Below are positions 38,465 through 48,289 of a stretch of 64,000 nt of DNA, in pieces. A model generated the notes under the pieces. That model was given only the letters and a program-made list of their open reading frames with translations. It was not told where the DNA came from and searched no databases. Source of the DNA: Candidatus Methylacidiphilum fumarolicum (GTDB lineage Bacteria; Verrucomicrobiota; Verrucomicrobiia; Methylacidiphilales; Methylacidiphilaceae); contig NZ_OX458932.1 of assembly GCF_949774925.1 (NCBI RefSeq), positions 1,674,001 to 1,738,000 of the forward strand. Direction: 5' to 3'. The position numbers were made by a program, and so were the translations under genes. Every line of letters starts with the position of its first letter. Position 1 is the first letter of the stretch.

Positions 38465-38569
38465 ATCAGGCTTTTCTTTTTGAATAGGATATCTTTAGTT
38501 TTTTCTTAATCTTTTTCCTTGATCGCCTCCCTTCTCTTTTCCTATTCTTCTTACATCCTTCTGCTTCCT

Positions 38570-39151
38570 ATGAAAACAAATATTAAAGAATTGACCCAAA
38601 CAATCATCGACATGATCCCCACCTCTCTAAGATTCAATGCTCATGACGAAGCCGTTTTTCAAAAATTTAAACCTTTTCATGAAAAACTTTCTGAAAAATT
38701 CGTCAAAGGTTTTTACGATATATTGTTTGGCTATCCAACAACTCAAAGCATTTTTAAGCCGGATGAAAGACCTTTGCGAGAGCCCGATCTTCAGCGCTGG
38801 TGGCAAAGAACTATTACTGGACCTTTTGATATAAACTACTGGTCTTGGCAGGCCGCAGTTGGAGTCATTCATATCAAAAGGAAGGTCAAAAATCCCATGA
38901 TGATCTCCATTTGGGGATGGATTCTGCTTACCCTCCAAAAAGAGTTCTCCATGAATTACTCTCTCCAAGACACATTCGAGGCGATGGATTCTTGGCATAG
39001 GCTAGCCATTACAGTTGAGTCCCTTATTGCCGAAAGCTATCTCCATAATTATATCGTTGCATTAGCCCAATCAACTGGCACCGAGTTTGCCCTTCTCGAT
39101 AGACTGGTAGCCATAGAGGTAGCGGACATTGACCCGAAGAACCTGAGCTAA
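38570..39151 (+). CDS. Protoglobin-like single-domain globin
   Basis: 193-residue all-helical protein resembling the protoglobin/globin-sensor family. FYDILFGYPTTQSIFKPDER and LQRWWQRTITGPFDINYWSW precede AVGVIHIKRKVKNPMMISIW, whose histidine is the probable proximal haem ligand, and a final helix LHNYIVALAQSTG. No signalling domain is attached. Globins are known in Methylacidiphilum. The ATG at 38570 lacks an obvious binding site; an upstream TTG at 38519 is possible. It lies about 100 bases after pntB on the same strand, so co-transcription is possible. O2 or NO sensing is inferred. Confidence 0.75.
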   Translation: MKTNIKELTQTIIDMIPTSLRFNAHDEAVFQKFKPFHEKLSEKFVKGFYDILFGYPTTQSIFKPDERPLREPDLQRWWQRTITGPFDINYWSWQAAVGVIHIKRKVKNPMMISIWGWILLTLQKEFSMNYSLQDTFEAMDSWHRLAITVESLIAESYLHNYIVALAQSTGTEFALLDRLVAIEVADIDPKNLS

Positions 39152-39158
39152 TTGGAAC

Positions 39159-39917
39159 TCACGTTTGAATTTTAATATCCCTATACGCAGCGATACCAAT
39201 AAGAGTAAAGGGAATAGATTGTGTAAAAAGGAAAAGAACAACAAGAAGTACTCTAAAAAGAAAGGAAAGTCTTGGAGTTTGTTGATCCAATGACCATATC
39301 AAATAGGAAGAAATTAATCCAATAGCCCTACGATCATCATAGGTTGTTCCTCCAAGAGCAAAATACGCATCCATATCTTTCTTTGCGAGAGTCTCAGCTT
39401 TTGTGATATTTAAATCAAGGATCTTTCCTAAAAAGGGGTGCATAGAAAGGAAGCTTTTTGTGGCATTAGAAACATAAATTGTCGCAACAGTTAACCGGCT
39501 TTGATAGGTTGTGGTCGGAATAATATGAGGATTTGTCCATTCATAGGCTGGTTCAATTCCTAAGTTCCAGACAGCCCTTCTCGCTTGCTCAAAAGTGCGA
39601 TTTTCCCATTCCTCATTCCTAACCAATTCATAACCCCATCTGTTTATCTGATCCCTTCCAGCGGTTTTTGTAAATCCTAGACAGAAAAATGTGCTCACAA
39701 AAATAAAAGTCATTAAAGAGGCTATACCACAAAAGAAATGATGGACCAATTTGACTTTGAATGTCCGATTCCACAGTTGTGTATAGTGACTGGCGAGCCA
39801 CCAGCAGAAACCAGCAAGGAAAAAAGAAAACAGCAAGGTTAACCAAAAATAAAGAGGTCTTTGATAAAGAAACAAAAAAAAGGCTTCCCTTAACAAATTC
39901 AATCCATCTTTGATCAT
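39159..39917 (-). CDS. Membrane protein, paralogue of the 46584-47348 product (tubulin-like locus)
   Basis: Unrecognised 252-residue protein with two N-terminal helices (about 20-45 and 60-80), an extracytoplasmic middle, and one C-terminal helix pair. It shares with the product of 46584-47348 the pattern AS.YT.LWN..F...HH.FCG.A near residue 45-70, W...T (NRTFEQA/DWTLAQS), VA.IY..NA, and IG.AAY.DI...T at the end. The two paralogues form the two ends of a five-gene same-strand cluster with a tubulin-like gene. The function is unknown. It is convergent with the protoglobin gene, 7 bases apart. Confidence 0.72.
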   Translation of the reverse strand: MIKDGLNLLREAFFLFLYQRPLYFWLTLLFSFFLAGFCWWLASHYTQLWNRTFKVKLVHHFFCGIASLMTFIFVSTFFCLGFTKTAGRDQINRWGYELVRNEEWENRTFEQARRAVWNLGIEPAYEWTNPHIIPTTTYQSRLTVATIYVSNATKSFLSMHPFLGKILDLNITKAETLAKKDMDAYFALGGTTYDDRRAIGLISSYLIWSLDQQTPRLSFLFRVLLVVLFLFTQSIPFTLIGIAAYRDIKIQT

Positions 39918-40081
39918 GAACGCATCTGGGATTAATCCATGAAATTATAAAAAGTTTAGACACATCAGCTCTTAAACATTTTTATTTCTTTCCAACTGAC
40001 CTGTCTCTTTTCTCTAGGACAATGGGCTAAAAAGAAACGACCTTAGGCTTCCAAAAGGACACCGAATACTAGAAGCCTCCA

Positions 40082-41647
40082 TCAAGGAAATGGTGGAGGA
40101 GAGGAAGATGGAGGAGGCAAAGGAGGAGCACCAGGAGGAGGCCCATACCCTTCTGCAGGAGGAAAAGATCCAGGAATTTGAGGATAGGAAGGAGAAGATG
40201 CTGGCGGATTGGATGGAAATGGAGGAGGCGGAAGAGGTTGAGAAGAAGCGGTAGGCATATAAGGAGCTGGAGTTTGAGGGGATTGTGAAGACGGATTGAA
40301 TATTGGACTAGCCCCCGATAATGCTAATCTCCTGTTCTCTGCCATTTGTCTTAGTTCTTGTGAATATTGCTCTAATAATCTTTCTTTTTCTTCTCTTGCT
40401 TTTGCAGCAGCTCTTCGGAGTGCTGCGTTATGGGCTGCCACTCTTGCACGCCAAGCTCTTTTCTCCTTCTCATACGAATAATATCCTCCTCCTAACCCAC
40501 CAAGAATTAGTCCTCCCAGAGCTCCCCATCCGGCTCCAGCTCCTCCTCCAGCAAGTCCTCCAATAAGCGCTCCTCCCGCAGCCCCTATCCCCGCCCCTTC
40601 AGCAGCAGTCGTGGGTCCACCAGTTCCAGGCTGCAAATACTTAGGTTTTCGGCCAGGACTAGAAATCTCGGATTTTGCCTCCGCATAGACTTGAGCCACT
40701 TGCTTGTCAATTTCTTTAAGCCGATTGGCTAGATCTGTCCATTGATTGTCTTCTTGACTTAGGGCTGTAGCCAGATCATAAGCTGAATAGAGGACCGTTT
40801 TTTGTGTTCCTGGAATAGTTTGTTCTGGCACCGCCGCCCAAGGAAACTTGTTATCTTCATTCAAAAATTTCCATCCACCATCAGCTTGTTTTATCGCTTT
40901 TAGCTTCCAGTCAAGGGTAATAGGCTGATTAGCCTCAAAAGCAGTTCGTTTCTGGTCCTGATAATAGACCATACCGGGTTCTTGATCCAAGGTAAAGAGA
41001 AGATCTTTAATATGAGATTTTGCCCAAGGTTGAAGATCTTTAGGAACACCTTCCAATCTTTCTTTTCCGGGAAGCACAGGTCCAACAGGTACCCAAAAGA
41101 AAGTAAGCTGGGGTTGAACCGTAACCTCATAATTCAAATTCCACTGGCCATTCTGATCTTTAACAGCGCTCTTTTCTTTAATATCAACAAAAGTAAATCC
41201 CTTAGGAATTTGGGATTTAATAGCTTCTTCTGCCTGAACTAACGATGGTTTAGACTCCAAAACTTTAAAAATTCCCTTTGGACCATTTATCATTCCATTA
41301 AATAAAGGAATAACAAAAAGAAGAATCAAAATGGCGACAATAACGAGTCCAATGCCACCGATCAATGGGAACAAAGAACTAGAACTTCTAGATACATATC
41401 GTGTTACCTCTTCAAGAGGCTTTTTACAACTCTTACAAACAAATTCTACTCCCTCAGGAACTTCAGTGATTTTTCCTGCTTCCTCACATTCCCCAAAATT
41501 AATGCATTTGCCTTTTCTTATCCCTGTAGTTCTTGCCTTCGGAGCTGTCTTCTTTTCGACAAAAGGATCTTCTCCCTCTCTGTCTTCTATCAATCCGTTT
41601 TTGCCCAAGTCCTTAGAAATCTTTTCCTTTTTCAAATCAAATCTCAT
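40082..41647 (-). CDS. Zinc-ribbon, single-pass, glycine-zipper protein with proline-rich tail
   Basis: 521 residues. The N-terminal zinc ribbon (about 48-75) has two cysteine pairs: KCINFGECEE and FVCKSCKKPLEE. One membrane helix follows (about 93-115). An extracytoplasmic domain spans 120-290. Near residue 350 is a glycine zipper (GIGAAGGALIGGLAGGGAGA), followed by a basic Ala/Arg/Glu coiled coil. The last 85 residues are Pro/Ser-rich (PPPSSSPPPFP). The ribbon-plus-helix start is shared with the next upstream gene. This suggests a membrane-anchored partner of the tubulin-like protein, with the glycine zipper perhaps inserting in or oligomerising at a membrane. Confidence 0.78.
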   Translation of the reverse strand: MRFDLKKEKISKDLGKNGLIEDREGEDPFVEKKTAPKARTTGIRKGKCINFGECEEAGKITEVPEGVEFVCKSCKKPLEEVTRYVSRSSSSLFPLIGGIGLVIVAILILLFVIPLFNGMINGPKGIFKVLESKPSLVQAEEAIKSQIPKGFTFVDIKEKSAVKDQNGQWNLNYEVTVQPQLTFFWVPVGPVLPGKERLEGVPKDLQPWAKSHIKDLLFTLDQEPGMVYYQDQKRTAFEANQPITLDWKLKAIKQADGGWKFLNEDNKFPWAAVPEQTIPGTQKTVLYSAYDLATALSQEDNQWTDLANRLKEIDKQVAQVYAEAKSEISSPGRKPKYLQPGTGGPTTAAEGAGIGAAGGALIGGLAGGGAGAGWGALGGLILGGLGGGYYSYEKEKRAWRARVAAHNAALRRAAAKAREEKERLLEQYSQELRQMAENRRLALSGASPIFNPSSQSPQTPAPYMPTASSQPLPPPPFPSNPPASSPSYPQIPGSFPPAEGYGPPPGAPPLPPPSSSPPPFP

Positions 41648-41747
41648 AAAGGAAATTATCTTGTTTTATTGTATTTGAAAATTTAACAAAAGTCACTAAA
41701 AATATTCCCACTAAACCATACTTTTTTCTTTAATATTTTACTAAGCT

Positions 41748-43310
41748 TCAGTACTTTTTAGCACAAAGCCAAACTTCTACCCGTCTGTTTTTTTCCCTTC
41801 CTGCTTCCGTATCGTTCGAAGCAACTGGCATTTCCTCTCCTGCTCCAGCAACACTTACCACTATTATTCCCTCTTTCTTCAACGCATTGGCAACGCTCTG
41901 AGCCCTTTCAAAGGAAAGCCCTAGATTATAGGTGTGGTTTCCAACGTTGTCTGTAAAACCAATCAACAGCACTCCCTTGTCTTTATTGGCTGGTTCCGAA
42001 AGAAATTGTGCAAGTCTTTTGATGTCGACAATCCCTTTGTTATCTAATTCCTTGCTACCAAAACGAAACCGAATGTCAAAAGGCACTCTTTTGGCTCCCG
42101 TTACCAAACTTTTATATCTTTCCGAAGCATTAAGAGGAATGAGATTCCCCTCATCGGCTCCTGTTGTAGGAATCGATCCGCTGTTTGCTTCTTCTATGCC
42201 ACTGCCGACAAAACCCATGGATGAAACACACTTTTGACCTTGAGTGGATAAAACATAATGAATGAATTTTTGTATCCATGAACTATTTTTATCAGTGACA
42301 TACAAGTACAATCTAAAGGCTAATGGATACTCTTCTGTGCCAATGGTAAAGCGGTTTGGTTTGAAAGCCTCGGCTCCTTTCATAAACAAAGAAAGGATCT
42401 TTACATTTTCATTAGCTCCAAAAGGTTGTGAAACAGATGGATAATCTGCAATACCTAAGCTTGTTGGATTATCCGAAACCGCTTTTTTCATTTCTTCGAT
42501 CCCTATTGTTTTGACACGAGTCCTATCAATAGGCATGTGCCGAAAAAAACTGGAAAGAGTTTGATTGCTACAGGATGAGCGTTGATCAGGGACAAAGAGA
42601 ATAATTTCCCCTTGGTAAGGTAGATTTAATTCCTTCCAATGCGTAATATTGCCGGAAAAGATCTTCTCTAATTGTTCTAGGCTTAAGGAATTGAGAGGAT
42701 TCTGATTATTAACCATAACGGTAAGAGCACTCTGACCAATAACGATTTCATGGTCTGGAGCAGTCATATCAAAAGGAAATCTTTTCAATTCCTCAGCTTG
42801 AATTTTCCGACAGGAAATTAACAATTCATCTTTTGCCGATATCAAATGGACAAATCCATCGGTTGTCTTTTGAGTTAGAATATTAATAATGGCTTGCGTT
42901 TTATCTGGCAGGACAAAAGAAAGCTCAGTCGATTGAGGATTTCTTTCTCTCCAACCGATCTCCTGTCCCTTAAGGTCCTCATGTAAAAATCCCAAAACCA
43001 ATGGCCGAACAAGACTCCGAGCTAGACAATCTTCAGTGATGATGCTAAAAAGAAGCTTTGGCTGCAAAGAAGAAGTAAGGCCAGCTTTCTTCTTTACAGC
43101 AGAAGAGTTTTTGAAGAAAGAAAAAACTAACCCGGCAAGTATTACTCCCACCAATCCCAATAAAATAAAGGGAAATGGCAAAAGCAAACGTCTTTTCTTC
43201 CTTGATTGCCATTCCTCAAGAGGAATGAGGCGGTTACCACAATCAGGACAAACAAATTCTTTATCTGATTCAATCTCAATGACTACATGTTGGTCAGCCT
43301 TGAAGGACAA
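41748..43310 (-). CDS. Membrane-anchored PBP-like/OmpA-domain protein
   Basis: 520 residues. A half zinc ribbon (FVCPDCGNRLIPLEEW, only one cysteine pair) is followed by a membrane helix (about 43-65). A periplasmic-binding-protein-like domain of the PstS kind (about 85-360) contains VMVNNQNPLNSLSLEQLEKI and FSGNITHWKELN. The OmpA peptidoglycan-binding domain at the C terminus has FRFGSKELDNKGIVDIKRLA, LIGFTDNVGNHTYNLGLSFE and REKNRRVEVWL. It starts at a TTG and has an upstream stop, so the missing cysteine pair is not a start error. It probably ties the complex to the cell wall. Confidence 0.85.
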   Translation of the reverse strand: MSFKADQHVVIEIESDKEFVCPDCGNRLIPLEEWQSRKKRRLLLPFPFILLGLVGVILAGLVFSFFKNSSAVKKKAGLTSSLQPKLLFSIITEDCLARSLVRPLVLGFLHEDLKGQEIGWRERNPQSTELSFVLPDKTQAIINILTQKTTDGFVHLISAKDELLISCRKIQAEELKRFPFDMTAPDHEIVIGQSALTVMVNNQNPLNSLSLEQLEKIFSGNITHWKELNLPYQGEIILFVPDQRSSCSNQTLSSFFRHMPIDRTRVKTIGIEEMKKAVSDNPTSLGIADYPSVSQPFGANENVKILSLFMKGAEAFKPNRFTIGTEEYPLAFRLYLYVTDKNSSWIQKFIHYVLSTQGQKCVSSMGFVGSGIEEANSGSIPTTGADEGNLIPLNASERYKSLVTGAKRVPFDIRFRFGSKELDNKGIVDIKRLAQFLSEPANKDKGVLLIGFTDNVGNHTYNLGLSFERAQSVANALKKEGIIVVSVAGAGEEMPVASNDTEAGREKNRRVEVWLCAKKY

Positions 43311-43374
43311 TTTCCAAAATTATCGCAAATCCCTTTTCTTGTCATCGAAATGAAAAAATAGGATCACAGGGAGA

Positions 43375-46300
43375 TCATAGTTCGCCACGAACCTTTTTTA
43401 TCGCCAGTTTTCCCCAATCAGCCAATCTTCTTGATTTTAGATCAGTTGGCTTTATTGTTGCTCTCAAATTGTTGACTTTTTTGACAATCTCAGATTCGAT
43501 TTCTTTTCTTTTTGGCTCTAGCTTCATCTCTGGGCTTTTAAGCAATGCCTCAACCTTCTGCTCCAAAAGTATCCCTGCTTCTTCTCTGATATTGGAAAGG
43601 GCTTCAGAAAAATTGTCTCCTCCAAGATAGACAGGTTGATCAAACCCATATTCATCTTTTTGCATAAAGCCTAACTGGATCGCCCCAGTTTCAGTCTCAA
43701 TTTTTTGAAGCATTTCTCTTTCAGTACCATCTTCCTCTTTTTCCTTCAGGACCATTCCTAAAAGAAGAACGGGAGCTAACCTTTCTTCCAATTCTGTTCG
43801 AGTAGGAACAAAAAGCGAAGGAAGGGTTTGGCCATCCCCTTCAATATGCAACTCCATACGGGCTCTTTTCGAATCAGATCCATTAATTCTTTCTAAATAT
43901 TTGGACTTCAGAAAAGACATATGCTGGACAATGCGCAGAGGGAAAAGGTTCGTAATGCTCACAAGGATGATTTCATTGAGCCGAGTATCATTTTCAATAA
44001 ACTCTTTGCTTGGATTGCGAATACATTCAAAAAAGACTTCCTTGAGAACTTTGATGTAATCTTCCATTTCGGGAGCTTTTGGAAGGATAACTGTAAAATT
44101 TGATACAGCTATTTGTGCGGTAGGATTAATGCCTTGTCCAACTCTTCTTTTCTCATCCGAATTAAAGATAAGATAATTGCCTGCAGCCTTAACAACATTG
44201 TCTAAGTAGAGTCGAAGTGATTGCCTATCTGCATACCTCTCTTTTAATTTTTCTATAATACTTACTCCAATAAGCCGATCACTTTCGGTCTGCACTAAAT
44301 TGTTATGCGCAATCTTTGCATTTTCCATGCATTGTCTTTCTAGAGTATCGAGAAACACGGTCTTAGAGATCCTTTCATTTAGAGTTTTAAAATCGAGTTT
44401 TTCTCCAAGCTTCTCAGCAATAGCCGTTCTGACTCTTTGTGTTTGGGTAGTTGCTTCTTTTTGATCTTTAATCAATCTTTTTGTAACATTTTTAACAAGC
44501 TCCGGATCGTAAAAACGGATCACCTGTTTTCTTAAATCGATCATTGCCCCCTGATCTGAACAACGAACAGCTATTTGATCTTCAAATGCTTTAATGGATT
44601 CAGCAATCATCGATGCGGCCTTATCCACATCGGCCTTTAATAAAACGATTTCTTCAATAATCACAGGCAGGAATTTCTTGGCAAATTGCCAACCTTCTAT
44701 TTTTGTCCTCACCGTATAAAGATCTTGCAATACAGTAGAAGCCGCATCAAAAAGCCTTCTCCTTTTCCCAAACATATCCGAAATTACACCCACTTTGGCC
44801 CACTCTTTTTGTTGTTCCGACAATTTTTTGGCCAATTCCTCTTCCTGTGGTTTTAGTTTGGTGATTTCTTCTTCTATACGATCGAATCGAGCTTTTAAAT
44901 GAGGAATTAAAGCTCCAAGAAGAGAGCTGATTTCGTGAGCGGATTTTGTTCCATTAATCCAATCTGAAAAAAGCTCACGCTCCAATTTTTGCCTTATTTC
45001 TCTGGCCCTTTCTCTAGTTGATTGACTTACTGTCTCATAAAAAGCTTTAACTCCTTGTCCTCTGTATTGCTCTTGAAACCTTGTATCCAACAAGTTTTTC
45101 AATCGATCCAACCATTTGTCCGCTGTTTCCTTTCCCTGCACATATTCTTTTAAATTAGTCGTCACATTCATCCAATACCGGCTCACAGGCTGCCATTTTG
45201 AGCCTACCCCATCCGATTCAAGAATCGGAGAAGACAAGATGAAGTGTTCGTCGCTGAGCATCCATCGCTCAAGCTGTTCGGGGCTACTCACATAGCTCAC
45301 CATATCCAGATTACGTGGATCGGATAAAAAGCCATCAGTCTCAGACCAGTTGTTATAGCGAAGCTGCAAAGCCGCTTGTCGAGCAAATTGGAAGGCAATG
45401 TACTCAGAAATTTCCGATTCAGGGACAGAAAGCCTTTTGACACCAAAAGTTAAAAATCTTTTCGAACGAACAGGATCATTCGAACCGGGCAGCGTTTCAG
45501 GATTTCCGTCCCCATTTTCTGCATTCTCAGCCCGTCCGAGCGATTCCCAGTTAATGTTTCTGACTGTCACAATTTTTTGGTAAAGAAAATCAGCTAGAAT
45601 ATTAGGTATATCTTCTGAGATATCCACGGCCAGTCCGTTTTCGTTAAAATTGGTAAAAACATAACACCCATTGAAAGGCGTTTTGAGTTCTTCTAATTTT
45701 CTTCCATCCCCGGCAATGTCACAGGGATAAAACTTACCGATACTCAAAGCATTGAGTTCAAGCAAAGCGGCATAGCCATTGGCATGATAATTTCCTGTAT
45801 TCCAGTTAGGTTTCGGATGCTCTTCGGGCAATAACGTATAAAGGATAATTCGGTATTGAAGTGTATCGGGATAGTTTTTCCTTATTTGACTAACACAATC
45901 AATCAGTATCCCACTGCCTGTTCCACCCGCCAAGCCACAACAAACATGAAAAGTAACATCCTGTTGGCCACCTTTTTGAATTTCGTTTACAAGATGGGTA
46001 AGTCTGCGACAAAATTCGTCAGCATGACTGGCAAAAAGAAATCTTCCAAGCCTCCTTTTCTGCCCTCCGATGGCATCCCCAATAATACTATTGAGGATGT
46101 CTCTCCAAATGGTTTTGTCTCCAATCCAAGGCTGAATGCCAGGATAACTCGGCAGGTCCTCAAGGATTGAAGCCAAATTAGAAGATTTTATTAAAAGTTG
46201 ACTGGTTGGTGGAATTTGAACACTCTGTCCAAGAACTTTCCAACTAGGATCATCAAGACGCATCAGTTCATCGCTTGAATCGACATAAAGGTAAGAGAGC

Positions 46301-46413
46301 CGGACATTGGGAGGATCGATTTTCCTGAATTCTTGAAAGATGGTCTTTCGGAAAGCTCGTATAATTTTTCCTCCCGTTCCCCCCAAACCGATAATGAGAT
46401 GATTTGCATTCAT
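43375..46413 (-). CDS. Large tubulin/FtsZ-like GTPase (Tub_2-type)
   Basis: 1012-residue protein. The N terminus LIIGLGGTGGKIIRAFRKTI and the loop CCGLAGGTGSGILIDCVSQI at about 159-175 match the tubulin/FtsZ nucleotide fold (GGTGSG is the T4 phosphate-contacting signature). YRIILYTLLPEEHPKPNWNT and NGYAALLELNAL follow as in bacterial tubulin-like (PF13809) proteins. From about residue 420 to 720 long charged helices look like coiled coil (EEITKLKPQEEELAKKLSEQ). The rest is alpha/beta of unknown fold. It is three times the size of FtsZ and is clearly not the division FtsZ. It is the second gene of the five-gene cluster. Confidence 0.87.
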   Translation of the reverse strand: MNANHLIIGLGGTGGKIIRAFRKTIFQEFRKIDPPNVRLSYLYVDSSDELMRLDDPSWKVLGQSVQIPPTSQLLIKSSNLASILEDLPSYPGIQPWIGDKTIWRDILNSIIGDAIGGQKRRLGRFLFASHADEFCRRLTHLVNEIQKGGQQDVTFHVCCGLAGGTGSGILIDCVSQIRKNYPDTLQYRIILYTLLPEEHPKPNWNTGNYHANGYAALLELNALSIGKFYPCDIAGDGRKLEELKTPFNGCYVFTNFNENGLAVDISEDIPNILADFLYQKIVTVRNINWESLGRAENAENGDGNPETLPGSNDPVRSKRFLTFGVKRLSVPESEISEYIAFQFARQAALQLRYNNWSETDGFLSDPRNLDMVSYVSSPEQLERWMLSDEHFILSSPILESDGVGSKWQPVSRYWMNVTTNLKEYVQGKETADKWLDRLKNLLDTRFQEQYRGQGVKAFYETVSQSTRERAREIRQKLERELFSDWINGTKSAHEISSLLGALIPHLKARFDRIEEEITKLKPQEEELAKKLSEQQKEWAKVGVISDMFGKRRRLFDAASTVLQDLYTVRTKIEGWQFAKKFLPVIIEEIVLLKADVDKAASMIAESIKAFEDQIAVRCSDQGAMIDLRKQVIRFYDPELVKNVTKRLIKDQKEATTQTQRVRTAIAEKLGEKLDFKTLNERISKTVFLDTLERQCMENAKIAHNNLVQTESDRLIGVSIIEKLKERYADRQSLRLYLDNVVKAAGNYLIFNSDEKRRVGQGINPTAQIAVSNFTVILPKAPEMEDYIKVLKEVFFECIRNPSKEFIENDTRLNEIILVSITNLFPLRIVQHMSFLKSKYLERINGSDSKRARMELHIEGDGQTLPSLFVPTRTELEERLAPVLLLGMVLKEKEEDGTEREMLQKIETETGAIQLGFMQKDEYGFDQPVYLGGDNFSEALSNIREEAGILLEQKVEALLKSPEMKLEPKRKEIESEIVKKVNNLRATIKPTDLKSRRLADWGKLAIKKVRGEL

Positions 46414-46583
46414 TGTTTAGGTTCAATCCTTCTCCCCAAAGATCGAGATGTTTTTAATAGCTTCAAAACCGATGCGACCTTTCCCTTACAAAAAAGCAAA
46501 GATCCTTTCTGTCTTACTGTATTGTGTTAAAATAACCACATTTGTAAACACAGAACTTGTATTTTTTTTGGCTGCTAAAAAAA

Positions 46584-47348
46584 CTATGTCCTGACTCGAA
46601 TGTCCTGATAAGCTGCCCATCCAATCAAGCAAAATGGGATAAGCTGAAAGACAACAAACAGCAGCGCAAGGATTGACCGAGATAAAACAACAAGCCTTCC
46701 CATTTGAGAATCGAGAATCGAAATGAGATAGTAGGTAACGATTTTGAGAGCCCTATCCACAGGATACACTTGAGGGCTACTTTGGAAAAAAGCGTTCATG
46801 TCTTGGAGTAGAGCTCGGCTGGGCACAGAAACATCTGGGTGAATAATCAAAGAAAGCGCGGGATGATTTTTTGAGAAATCGTATGCTGCATTCCTTGCAT
46901 AGATATTGGCCACAATCGCTCTGGAATATGGATCTACCAGTGGAACGAATTGAGCTTGGGGAGGAGGAAGAAACTTTTCTCTTCCACTGACTCGAACAGC
47001 CTCATAAGATTGAGCTAAAGTCCAATCTTCCCAACGAGAATCCTTTAAAATTTTGGCCGCCCAATTAAAAACAATCAGTTTGCCAACCTCCTTAGAATAT
47101 TTCAAAGAAAAAAAGCAGATCACAAAAAGAGTCGTTGCAACGGCCGCTAAGCCACAAAATAGATGATGGATCGGATTGGCCCTAAATTTCTTATTCCAAA
47201 GGAGAGTATAGGTACTGGCAATTATCCAGCACACCGCCCCTAACAACGCTCCAATTGTCAAGGAATGAAAAAAAAGAGGAAGCTCTTTTTTAAGCATATA
47301 AGAAAAAGAAGCAGAAAGAAGCCAAAAGAATATCTTCAAATAAACCAT
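46584..47348 (-). CDS. Membrane protein, paralogue of the 39159-39917 product (first gene of the tubulin-like locus)
   Basis: 254 residues, with the same plan as its paralogue: N-terminal helices around residues 25-50 and 65-85, a 130-residue extracytoplasmic middle, and C-terminal helices (VVLSRSILALLFVVFQLIPF) ending IGWAAYQDIRVRT. Shared residues include AS.YTLLWN, HHLFCGLAA, VANIYARNAAYDF and QDMNAFF. It lies 170 bases upstream of the tubulin-like gene. Two copies in one cluster suggest a hetero-oligomeric membrane component. No family recognised. Confidence 0.72.
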   Translation of the reverse strand: MVYLKIFFWLLSASFSYMLKKELPLFFHSLTIGALLGAVCWIIASTYTLLWNKKFRANPIHHLFCGLAAVATTLFVICFFSLKYSKEVGKLIVFNWAAKILKDSRWEDWTLAQSYEAVRVSGREKFLPPPQAQFVPLVDPYSRAIVANIYARNAAYDFSKNHPALSLIIHPDVSVPSRALLQDMNAFFQSSPQVYPVDRALKIVTYYLISILDSQMGRLVVLSRSILALLFVVFQLIPFCLIGWAAYQDIRVRT

Positions 47349-47551: not shown

Positions 47552-48289
47552 TTAATTCAATGTTTGTTTTTTGGCAAACAAGGATTCATAGTCAGCAAGA
47601 TACTGACTAAAAGCATCGTTACCATATATGATGCGAGCAGTATCAAGAAAATTTTTTTCATCCGCATATTTTTTTTGAACCCGACACAGAGCAGCCCTAG
47701 CAAAATAATAGCCAGGAGAAGCTTCATCAAAAGCACTTAATTCAGAAAGTAAATTCTCTGCACCTAAAAGCCTTCCTAATCCAATTTCACAATAGATCCT
47801 TTTCAAAAGAATCTCTTTGTTCATAGGATCATGTAATGCTGCTTGTTCGAACCGATATAATGCTTCTTTGAAATCTTTTTTTGCAAAAAAAACCTCTCCT
47901 AAATATTGATAGGCGGGACCATAGTCTGGTTGTATTTTGAAAACCTTGTACAATTCTTTTTCTGCCCTTTCATAATCCTTCTGCTTTAAATAGATCCGGG
48001 CAGCTAAAACGATAGCACGTGGATCATTTGGCCTTAATTCCATAGCCCTAGAAATGGCTTTTTGCGCTTCCTCCAACTTGAGCCTCTTAAAGGCCACCAG
48101 AGCATCCTGATAAGCTTGAAAAAAAACCCTATCCTTTTCTTTTTGATTTTCCAACACCTCACTCCATCCCCAGGCTCCTCCCCAAAAAATAAAAATAGTG
48201 GTAGCTGCCCAAAAAACGTATAAAAGCTCTTCCCTTTTTATCCTAAAAAGTCTAATTGGTCTTTTTTTATTGTTCAATCCTCTGCTCAC
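47552..48289 (-). CDS. Membrane-anchored TPR protein
   Basis: 245 residues: a basic N terminus, one membrane helix (LLYVFWAATTIFIFWGGAWG), then at least four tetratricopeptide repeats (AFKRLKLEEAQKAISRAMEL, AARIYLKQKDYERAEKELYK, YQYLGEVFFAKKDFKEALYR, LLKRIYCEIGLGRLLGAENL). TPR arrays mediate protein-protein contacts. It sits upstream of tRNA-Cys and the tubulin-like cluster on the same strand, but the tRNA between makes a shared role uncertain. Confidence 0.85.
   Translation of the reverse strand: MSRGLNNKKRPIRLFRIKREELLYVFWAATTIFIFWGGAWGWSEVLENQKEKDRVFFQAYQDALVAFKRLKLEEAQKAISRAMELRPNDPRAIVLAARIYLKQKDYERAEKELYKVFKIQPDYGPAYQYLGEVFFAKKDFKEALYRFEQAALHDPMNKEILLKRIYCEIGLGRLLGAENLLSELSAFDEASPGYYFARAALCRVQKKYADEKNFLDTARIIYGNDAFSQYLADYESLFAKKQTLN

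Follow-up and report, generated by a model that had tools for sequence, protein, structure and literature searches.

An FtsZl1/Tubulin_2 locus of Candidatus Methylacidiphilum fumarolicum and its candidate role as a wall-tethered envelope scaffold

What could a bacterium with a cell-division FtsZ of its own do with a second, 1012-residue tubulin-like protein that is encoded among genes for membrane proteins? The question is raised by five consecutive open reading frames (ORFs) on the minus strand of a 64-kb window (the whole stretch of DNA analysed here, from contig NZ_OX458932.1 of Candidatus Methylacidiphilum fumarolicum). An earlier note made from the letters of this stretch had listed the five ORFs, and all of them are found where it placed them. 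We name them, in transcription order, A2, D, C, B, and A1, D being the tubulin-like protein. The reading that we prefer, with a probability of about 45%, is that D would be part of a wall-tethered, GTP-dependent scaffold of the FtsZl1 type that serves envelope remodelling and not division.

The tubulin-like protein and its partners

D (43375-46413) matches the Tubulin_2 family (PF13809) over residues 6-347 with an E-value of 1.7e-60 and a score of 205.6 bits, where the cut-off is 27; the E-value against PF00091 is 2.3e-4. The sequence GLGGTGG, which starts at residue 9, is T1-like, and GGTGSG at residues 163-168 is positioned as T4 and fits the signature GGTG(S/T)G. The profile match and the loop together bear out the earlier description of the protein as tubulin/FtsZ-like, and by sequence D is clearly a member of Tubulin_2. 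The family was named FtsZl1 by Makarova and Koonin in 2010 (PMC2875224), whose main text proposes membrane remodelling as its role and describes a central coiled coil and a mostly helical C-terminal domain. In D, the coiled-coil-type Pfam matches are weak, Pfam finds no tubulin/FtsZ C-terminal domain in the C-terminal two thirds, and a profile of D compared with the PDB gives tubulin matches no better than E 0.014, confined to the T4 region. A 2023 phylogeny (PMC9871819) sets Tubulin_2 proteins apart from FtsZ and tubulin proper.

D is not the cell-division FtsZ of the genome. It is the only PF13809 match in 2.48 Mb, and a separate canonical FtsZ gene is located at G000:C1:1628611-1629081 (PF00091, E 2.4e-19). 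FtsZ is also present in the congener G002, which has no D. Because a separate FtsZ exists, a role of D in cell division is not expected.

C (41748-43345, counted from the ATG at 43345 as in the congeners) is composed of a zinc ribbon, a transmembrane (TM) segment, a PstS-like domain, and an OmpA domain. Its Pfam matches are PBP_like_2 (E 8e-19) and OmpA (PF00691, E 7e-19), the latter in line with the link to peptidoglycan suggested earlier, and its PDB profile matches are phosphate-binding proteins (4jwo, E 1.4e-20) and OmpA-family domains. Basic residues lie ahead of the TM segment, supporting an orientation in which the zinc ribbon would be cytoplasmic. The domains that the earlier note had assigned to C are therefore present, but the complete zinc ribbon is not: one C is missing near 43302 in the window, where the congener locus L013 reads CDNFGNCPSKAD, and the deletion site is TTCCAAGG in L013 versus TTCAAGG in the window. 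After the deletion, the frame opened by the ATG at 43345 meets a stop, and the surviving ORF, which starts with TTG (41748-43310), retains two of the four zinc-ribbon cysteines. The deletion is either a sequencing error or recent damage that leaves a TTG-started C with half a zinc ribbon.

B (40082-41647) is composed of a zinc ribbon, a TM segment, a domain of unknown family, a glycine-zipper-like stretch, and a proline-rich tail. The glycine-zipper match is weak (E 0.03), no Pfam family scores above its cut-off, and a PDB profile search gives no match at E 1. B-like paralogues without a zinc ribbon are located at a second chromosomal site (G000:C1:924541-925506, given also as L104:8152-9495; L105, L108, and L109); they occur in several Methylacidiphilaceae, including G005, which has no A or D.

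A2 (46584-47348), upstream of D, and A1 (39159-39917) are membrane proteins with three TM segments, and their identity of 35-37% agrees with the earlier claim that they are paralogues; the 3-TM and zinc-ribbon assignments throughout come from simple patterns and a hydropathy window and not from a trained predictor. The AlphaFold2 model of A1 is all-helical, with a predicted local distance difference test (pLDDT) score of 87. A comparison of A with the TolQ/ExbB family came out negative. A Foldseek search of the PDB with the A1 model gives nothing below E 0.38, and its weak TolQ rows, at E 2-3, carry no evidential weight. Methylacidimicrobium-type genomes also carry A-family paralogues at sites other than the tubulin locus (L106:8912-9850 and L107:9054-9833).

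The five-gene set is under purifying selection, strongest on D. Measured against L013, the ratio of nonsynonymous to synonymous substitution rates is 0.049 for D, 0.08 for A1 and A2, 0.13 for B, and 0.17 for C, compared with 0.09 and 0.11 for the flanking genes. Scans for promoters and terminators did not exceed chance.

Recurrence of the A-D-C core

Within Methylacidiphilaceae, D is present in 10 of the 12 other genomes searched (G001-G012), the exceptions being G002 and G005, and in 11 of 13 with the window genome included. Three congeners keep the same five-gene order between a protoglobin gene and a TPR gene. In the sister genus (Methylacidimicrobium-type), the order D-C-B is kept and one divergent A lies upstream where the contig reaches, some contigs ending before B or A; one genome of this genus carries two B genes. 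In G002, the same flanking genes enclose B, which is of full length with an intact zinc ribbon (L103:7792-9324), while A1, C, D, and A2 are missing and tblastn finds no remnant of them. The simplest reading of this pattern is loss of a block, and the absence of A, D, and C en bloc supports their being one functional unit.

The border of the set follows from the same genome. Because G002, without A, D, and C, still has the TPR gene (47552-48289, next upstream) and the protoglobin gene (38519-39151), both are placed outside the set. The TPR gene had been considered as a sixth member; it bears no resemblance to the TPR protein that adjoins D in Paraburkholderia. The protoglobin gene, on the opposite strand, directly adjoins the locus, and G002, like the three syntenic congeners, has it at the same place.

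Across the phylum, PF13809 is sparse: it is found in 16 of 388 genomes, 11 of them above the cut-off, and in 24 of 244 genomes of a distant family of the same class (f11; Verrucomicrobiae) above the cut-off. Six f11 loci (L089, L090, L091, L093, L094, and L098) have A-D-C, followed by a 3-TM protein with a long coiled tail and then by a 1-TM protein. The f11 C is composed of a zinc ribbon, a TM segment, a coiled stretch, a PstS-like domain, and an OmpA domain, and aligns end to end with the window C for six loci; the homology of C across families reaches E 1.1e-13 for L048, and the OmpA domain is above the Pfam cut-off in L098. For A, the homology across families (E 3.1e-6, over the soluble domain and the last TM segment) is seen by profile-profile comparison alone, the A profile giving no match to single f11 proteins; for L086, the A profile scores E 1e-45. 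A gene of A topology precedes D in about 22 of the 29 D loci, by hand count. The neighbourhood survey thus finds the recurrent co-location in distant genomes that the earlier note had looked to for support: A-D-C occurs in both Methylacidiphilaceae genera that have D, and in f11. The special link to methanotroph internal membranes that the note had raised is not supported, since the same core occurs in the distant Verrucomicrobiae family. Two or more tubulin-like ORFs stand in tandem at L102:8419-13344 (G602, f11).

Outside the family, D is most closely related to a protein of Paraburkholderia (34% identity over 86%), a betaproteobacterium, and to those of the f11 loci L086 and L087; in the D tree, these three and five family rows form a clade of eight with support of 100/100. 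The gene after D encodes a zinc ribbon, a TM segment, and TPR repeats in Paraburkholderia, and a zinc ribbon and a TM segment (with a vWA domain in L087) in L086 and L087, where an ATP-binding cassette (ABC) ATPase and an FtsX-type permease follow. The vWA/PKD-type loci L045, L046, L047, and L088 have no A-type gene before D and lie outside the clade of eight, on long branches whose placing is unsure.

The zinc ribbon next to D stands out from the background. The gene right after D encodes two cysteine pairs and then a TM segment at 15 of 29 loci, versus 5 of 401 other ORFs, counts in which related loci are not independent and for which the pattern was picked after some sequences had been seen. 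Three of the five background matches are B genes of Methylacidiphilaceae. The arrangement spans Methylacidiphilaceae, f11, and the betaproteobacterium, which, with the architecture of B and C, sustains the earlier proposal of zinc-ribbon membrane anchors. The exceptions are the vWA-type loci and six loci of the f11 genus g17, in which the C-position protein starts with a TM segment or a lipoprotein-like signal.

The additional pair of f11 proteins resembles MotA/ZorA and MotB/ZorB, which is a lead, not a proof. The best scores, of a kind that coiled coils inflate, are E 1.2e-6 for ZorA2 (L098), 3.1e-6 for ZorB1 (L090), and 0.003 for MotA_ExbB in one of ten. The 1-TM protein has an invariant W-P-x-x-x-D at the start of its TM segment, and the 3-TM protein has G-T-x-x-x-V/I and A-L-x-x-T in its last two TM segments. 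Alignment of the MotA-like proteins with E. coli ExbB and MotA by hhalign is weak, ExbB aligning at the expected TM segments, and a core-only profile finds no MotA or TolQ match in the PDB. In one f11 genus, the tubulin-like and C-position genes are followed by three to four consecutive MotA-like ORFs (L096:3-4676 and L100:14532-18873).

The proposed scaffold and its competitors

In the arrangement that we propose, D, predicted to be cytoplasmic and GTP-binding, would assemble on the inside of the cytoplasmic membrane, where A1 and A2 would keep it. B and C would each use an N-terminal zinc ribbon, on the cytoplasmic side, to dock on D or A, and C would span the membrane and grip peptidoglycan through its OmpA domain. 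The outcome would be a GTP-dependent scaffold, tied to the wall, that organises or deforms the envelope away from the division septum. We infer from sequence GTP binding and hydrolysis and polymerisation for D, docking for the zinc ribbons, wall binding in vivo for C, and a remodelling role for the whole.

Several observations weigh against such a scaffold. D has no FtsZ T7 motif (NxDxxD) in residues 181-420, where it would be expected, which makes polymerisation doubtful; the main text of the 2010 paper reports that T6-T7 is not recognisable in FtsZl1, unlike in FtsZ. The AlphaFold2 model of D, made with seven sequences, shows long helices at a pLDDT of 39.5 and is too poor to use. The zinc ribbon of C is broken in the window genome, and, judged by the g17 proteins that lack one, it is not obligatory. 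B can exist without A, D, and C and may have another role. The assignment of the f11 pair as MotA/MotB-like is weak by sequence. No experiment on any FtsZl1 protein was found in literature searches, which covered few subscription journals.

Comparison with known systems places the locus near two published predictions, PMC2875224 (FtsZl1, M. infernorum, and OmpA partners) and PMC7159879, which the earlier note overlooked when it knew of no described system with this set. In the main text of the 2010 paper, FtsZl1 genes have vWA proteins as neighbours in most genomes and OmpA-family proteins in several, besides GTPases and kinases; the tree in that paper places M. infernorum and Polaromonas outside the main bacterial branch. 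The window locus is alike in that D is a member of the family with OmpA-domain and membrane-protein neighbours, and the grouping of the window with Paraburkholderia resembles that branching. In contrast, the window locus lacks genes for a vWA protein, a kinase, or a P-loop GTPase (among the five genes and three neighbours, Pfam finds no VWA domain), and the 3-TM protein A, the zinc-ribbon-TM bridge, and the MotA/MotB-like or ABC/FtsX partners of the relatives do not appear in the 2010 main text. What is new beyond that text is a variant of FtsZl1 without vWA and with a recurrent core of A, D, and C, whose partner families may already be in the additional files of the paper as unnamed families.

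The second prediction bears on an alternative that we consider unlikely, namely that the locus is a conflict system against phages or other invaders, with D as a multimerising platform driven by nucleoside triphosphates and the envelope parts sensing injection or damage as ZorAB do in Zorya. Kaur et al. (2020, PMC7159879) predict conflict systems for tubulin-vWA-GTPase neighbourhoods, including those of GAP1-N2 with tubulin. These GAP1-N2/DO-GTPase systems share with the window a tubulin homologue and membrane-spanning partners that reach the wall, their GTPases carry zinc ribbons, and L086, a close relative, adjoins weak matches to DO-GTPase2 and GAP1-N2. However, the window set has no GTPase, GAP1, FNIII, or vWA gene, and no TRAFAC GTPase or GAP1 gene is found by Pfam in this set or in three genes next to it. 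Zorya (ZorA/ZorB) and Tol-Pal/MotAB resemble the locus in the OmpA domain and in the MotA/TolQ-like and MotB-like pair of the relatives, with its invariant TM aspartate and its matches to the ZorA and ZorB models, but the sequence support for that pair is weak, the window has no ZorA or TolQ homologue, and the other Zorya genes are absent: the OmpA domain of C alone matches ZorB models, and none of the five proteins matches ZorA, ZorC, ZorD, or ZorE. The patchiness of D in the phylum and the missing block in G002 would suit a defence gene, but D is present in most Methylacidiphilaceae, occupies, within the genus, a constant site with unchanged neighbours on either side, and evolves more slowly than its flanks. 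The locus has no recognisable effector, PADLOC gives no match for A or D and, for B, nothing beyond a weak LeoBC match, no relative turns up in phage records or viral contigs, and plasmid records contain one match to D, on a 1.09 Mb replicon.

Still less likely is an envelope sensing or uptake apparatus, in which the PstS-like domain of C would bind an oxyanion or another ligand and D would be the structural hub of a transport or signalling complex. The resemblance of C to phosphate-binding proteins and the ABC/FtsX genes beside close relatives of D speak for it, as does the review comment of G. Jekely printed with the 2010 paper, which suggested transport or signalling. The window locus, however, has no permease or ABC gene, and the phosphate-binding site appears altered. 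The nearest likeness to C in architecture is a Pseudoalteromonas protein annotated as 'phosphate ABC transporter substrate-binding/OmpA family protein'. It aligns with 83% of C at 31% identity but, unlike C, lacks a zinc ribbon, and none of the genes annotated around it is tubulin-like. Its loop GSNTIG, which we take to be the PstS phosphate loop, is TEDCLA in the window C and GSRILG in the sister genus; because of this replacement, phosphate binding by the window C has probably been lost. In the Pseudoalteromonas gene itself (L085:6560-8257), the loop sequence looks intact. Papers searched for a link to mucin uptake in Akkermansia (the 'mucinosome') gave nothing usable.

The least probable alternative is that D is a GTP-regulated adaptor that forms no filament and the locus a static membrane-wall tether, as the missing T7 motif, the lack of a Pfam tubulin/FtsZ C-terminal domain, and the polymerisation left open by the authors of the 2010 main text would allow, but all superfamily members characterised by 2010 form filaments according to that text.

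Meaning for the envelope

Returning to the wall-tethered scaffold, the MotA/MotB-like or ABC/FtsX pair beside the core in relatives suggests that force or energy may be fed into the structure; the window locus has no such gene. The divisome works with Tol-Pal and FtsEX, and the ion-driven or ABC/FtsX partners linked to D relatives are reminiscent of that. A bolder and rather improbable extension is that the family represents a second, non-division 'Z-ring-like' trans-envelope machine, built of a tubulin-family polymer, zinc-ribbon-TM-OmpA ties to the wall, and exchangeable energisers (MotA/MotB-like and ion-driven, FtsEX/MacB-like ABC, or none in the Methylacidiphilum locus).

A topological objection was printed with the 2010 paper (PMC2875224), and a zinc-ribbon-TM-OmpA protein, which could join a cytoplasmic tubulin to peptidoglycan, would answer it. 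The zinc-ribbon-TM bridge is thus a concrete and testable answer, and the recurrent A-D-C core is a minimal set for reconstitution. Should the pairing with MotA/MotB-like or ABC/FtsX genes in relatives prove real, it would amount to a tubulin cytoskeleton connected to a motor in the envelope.

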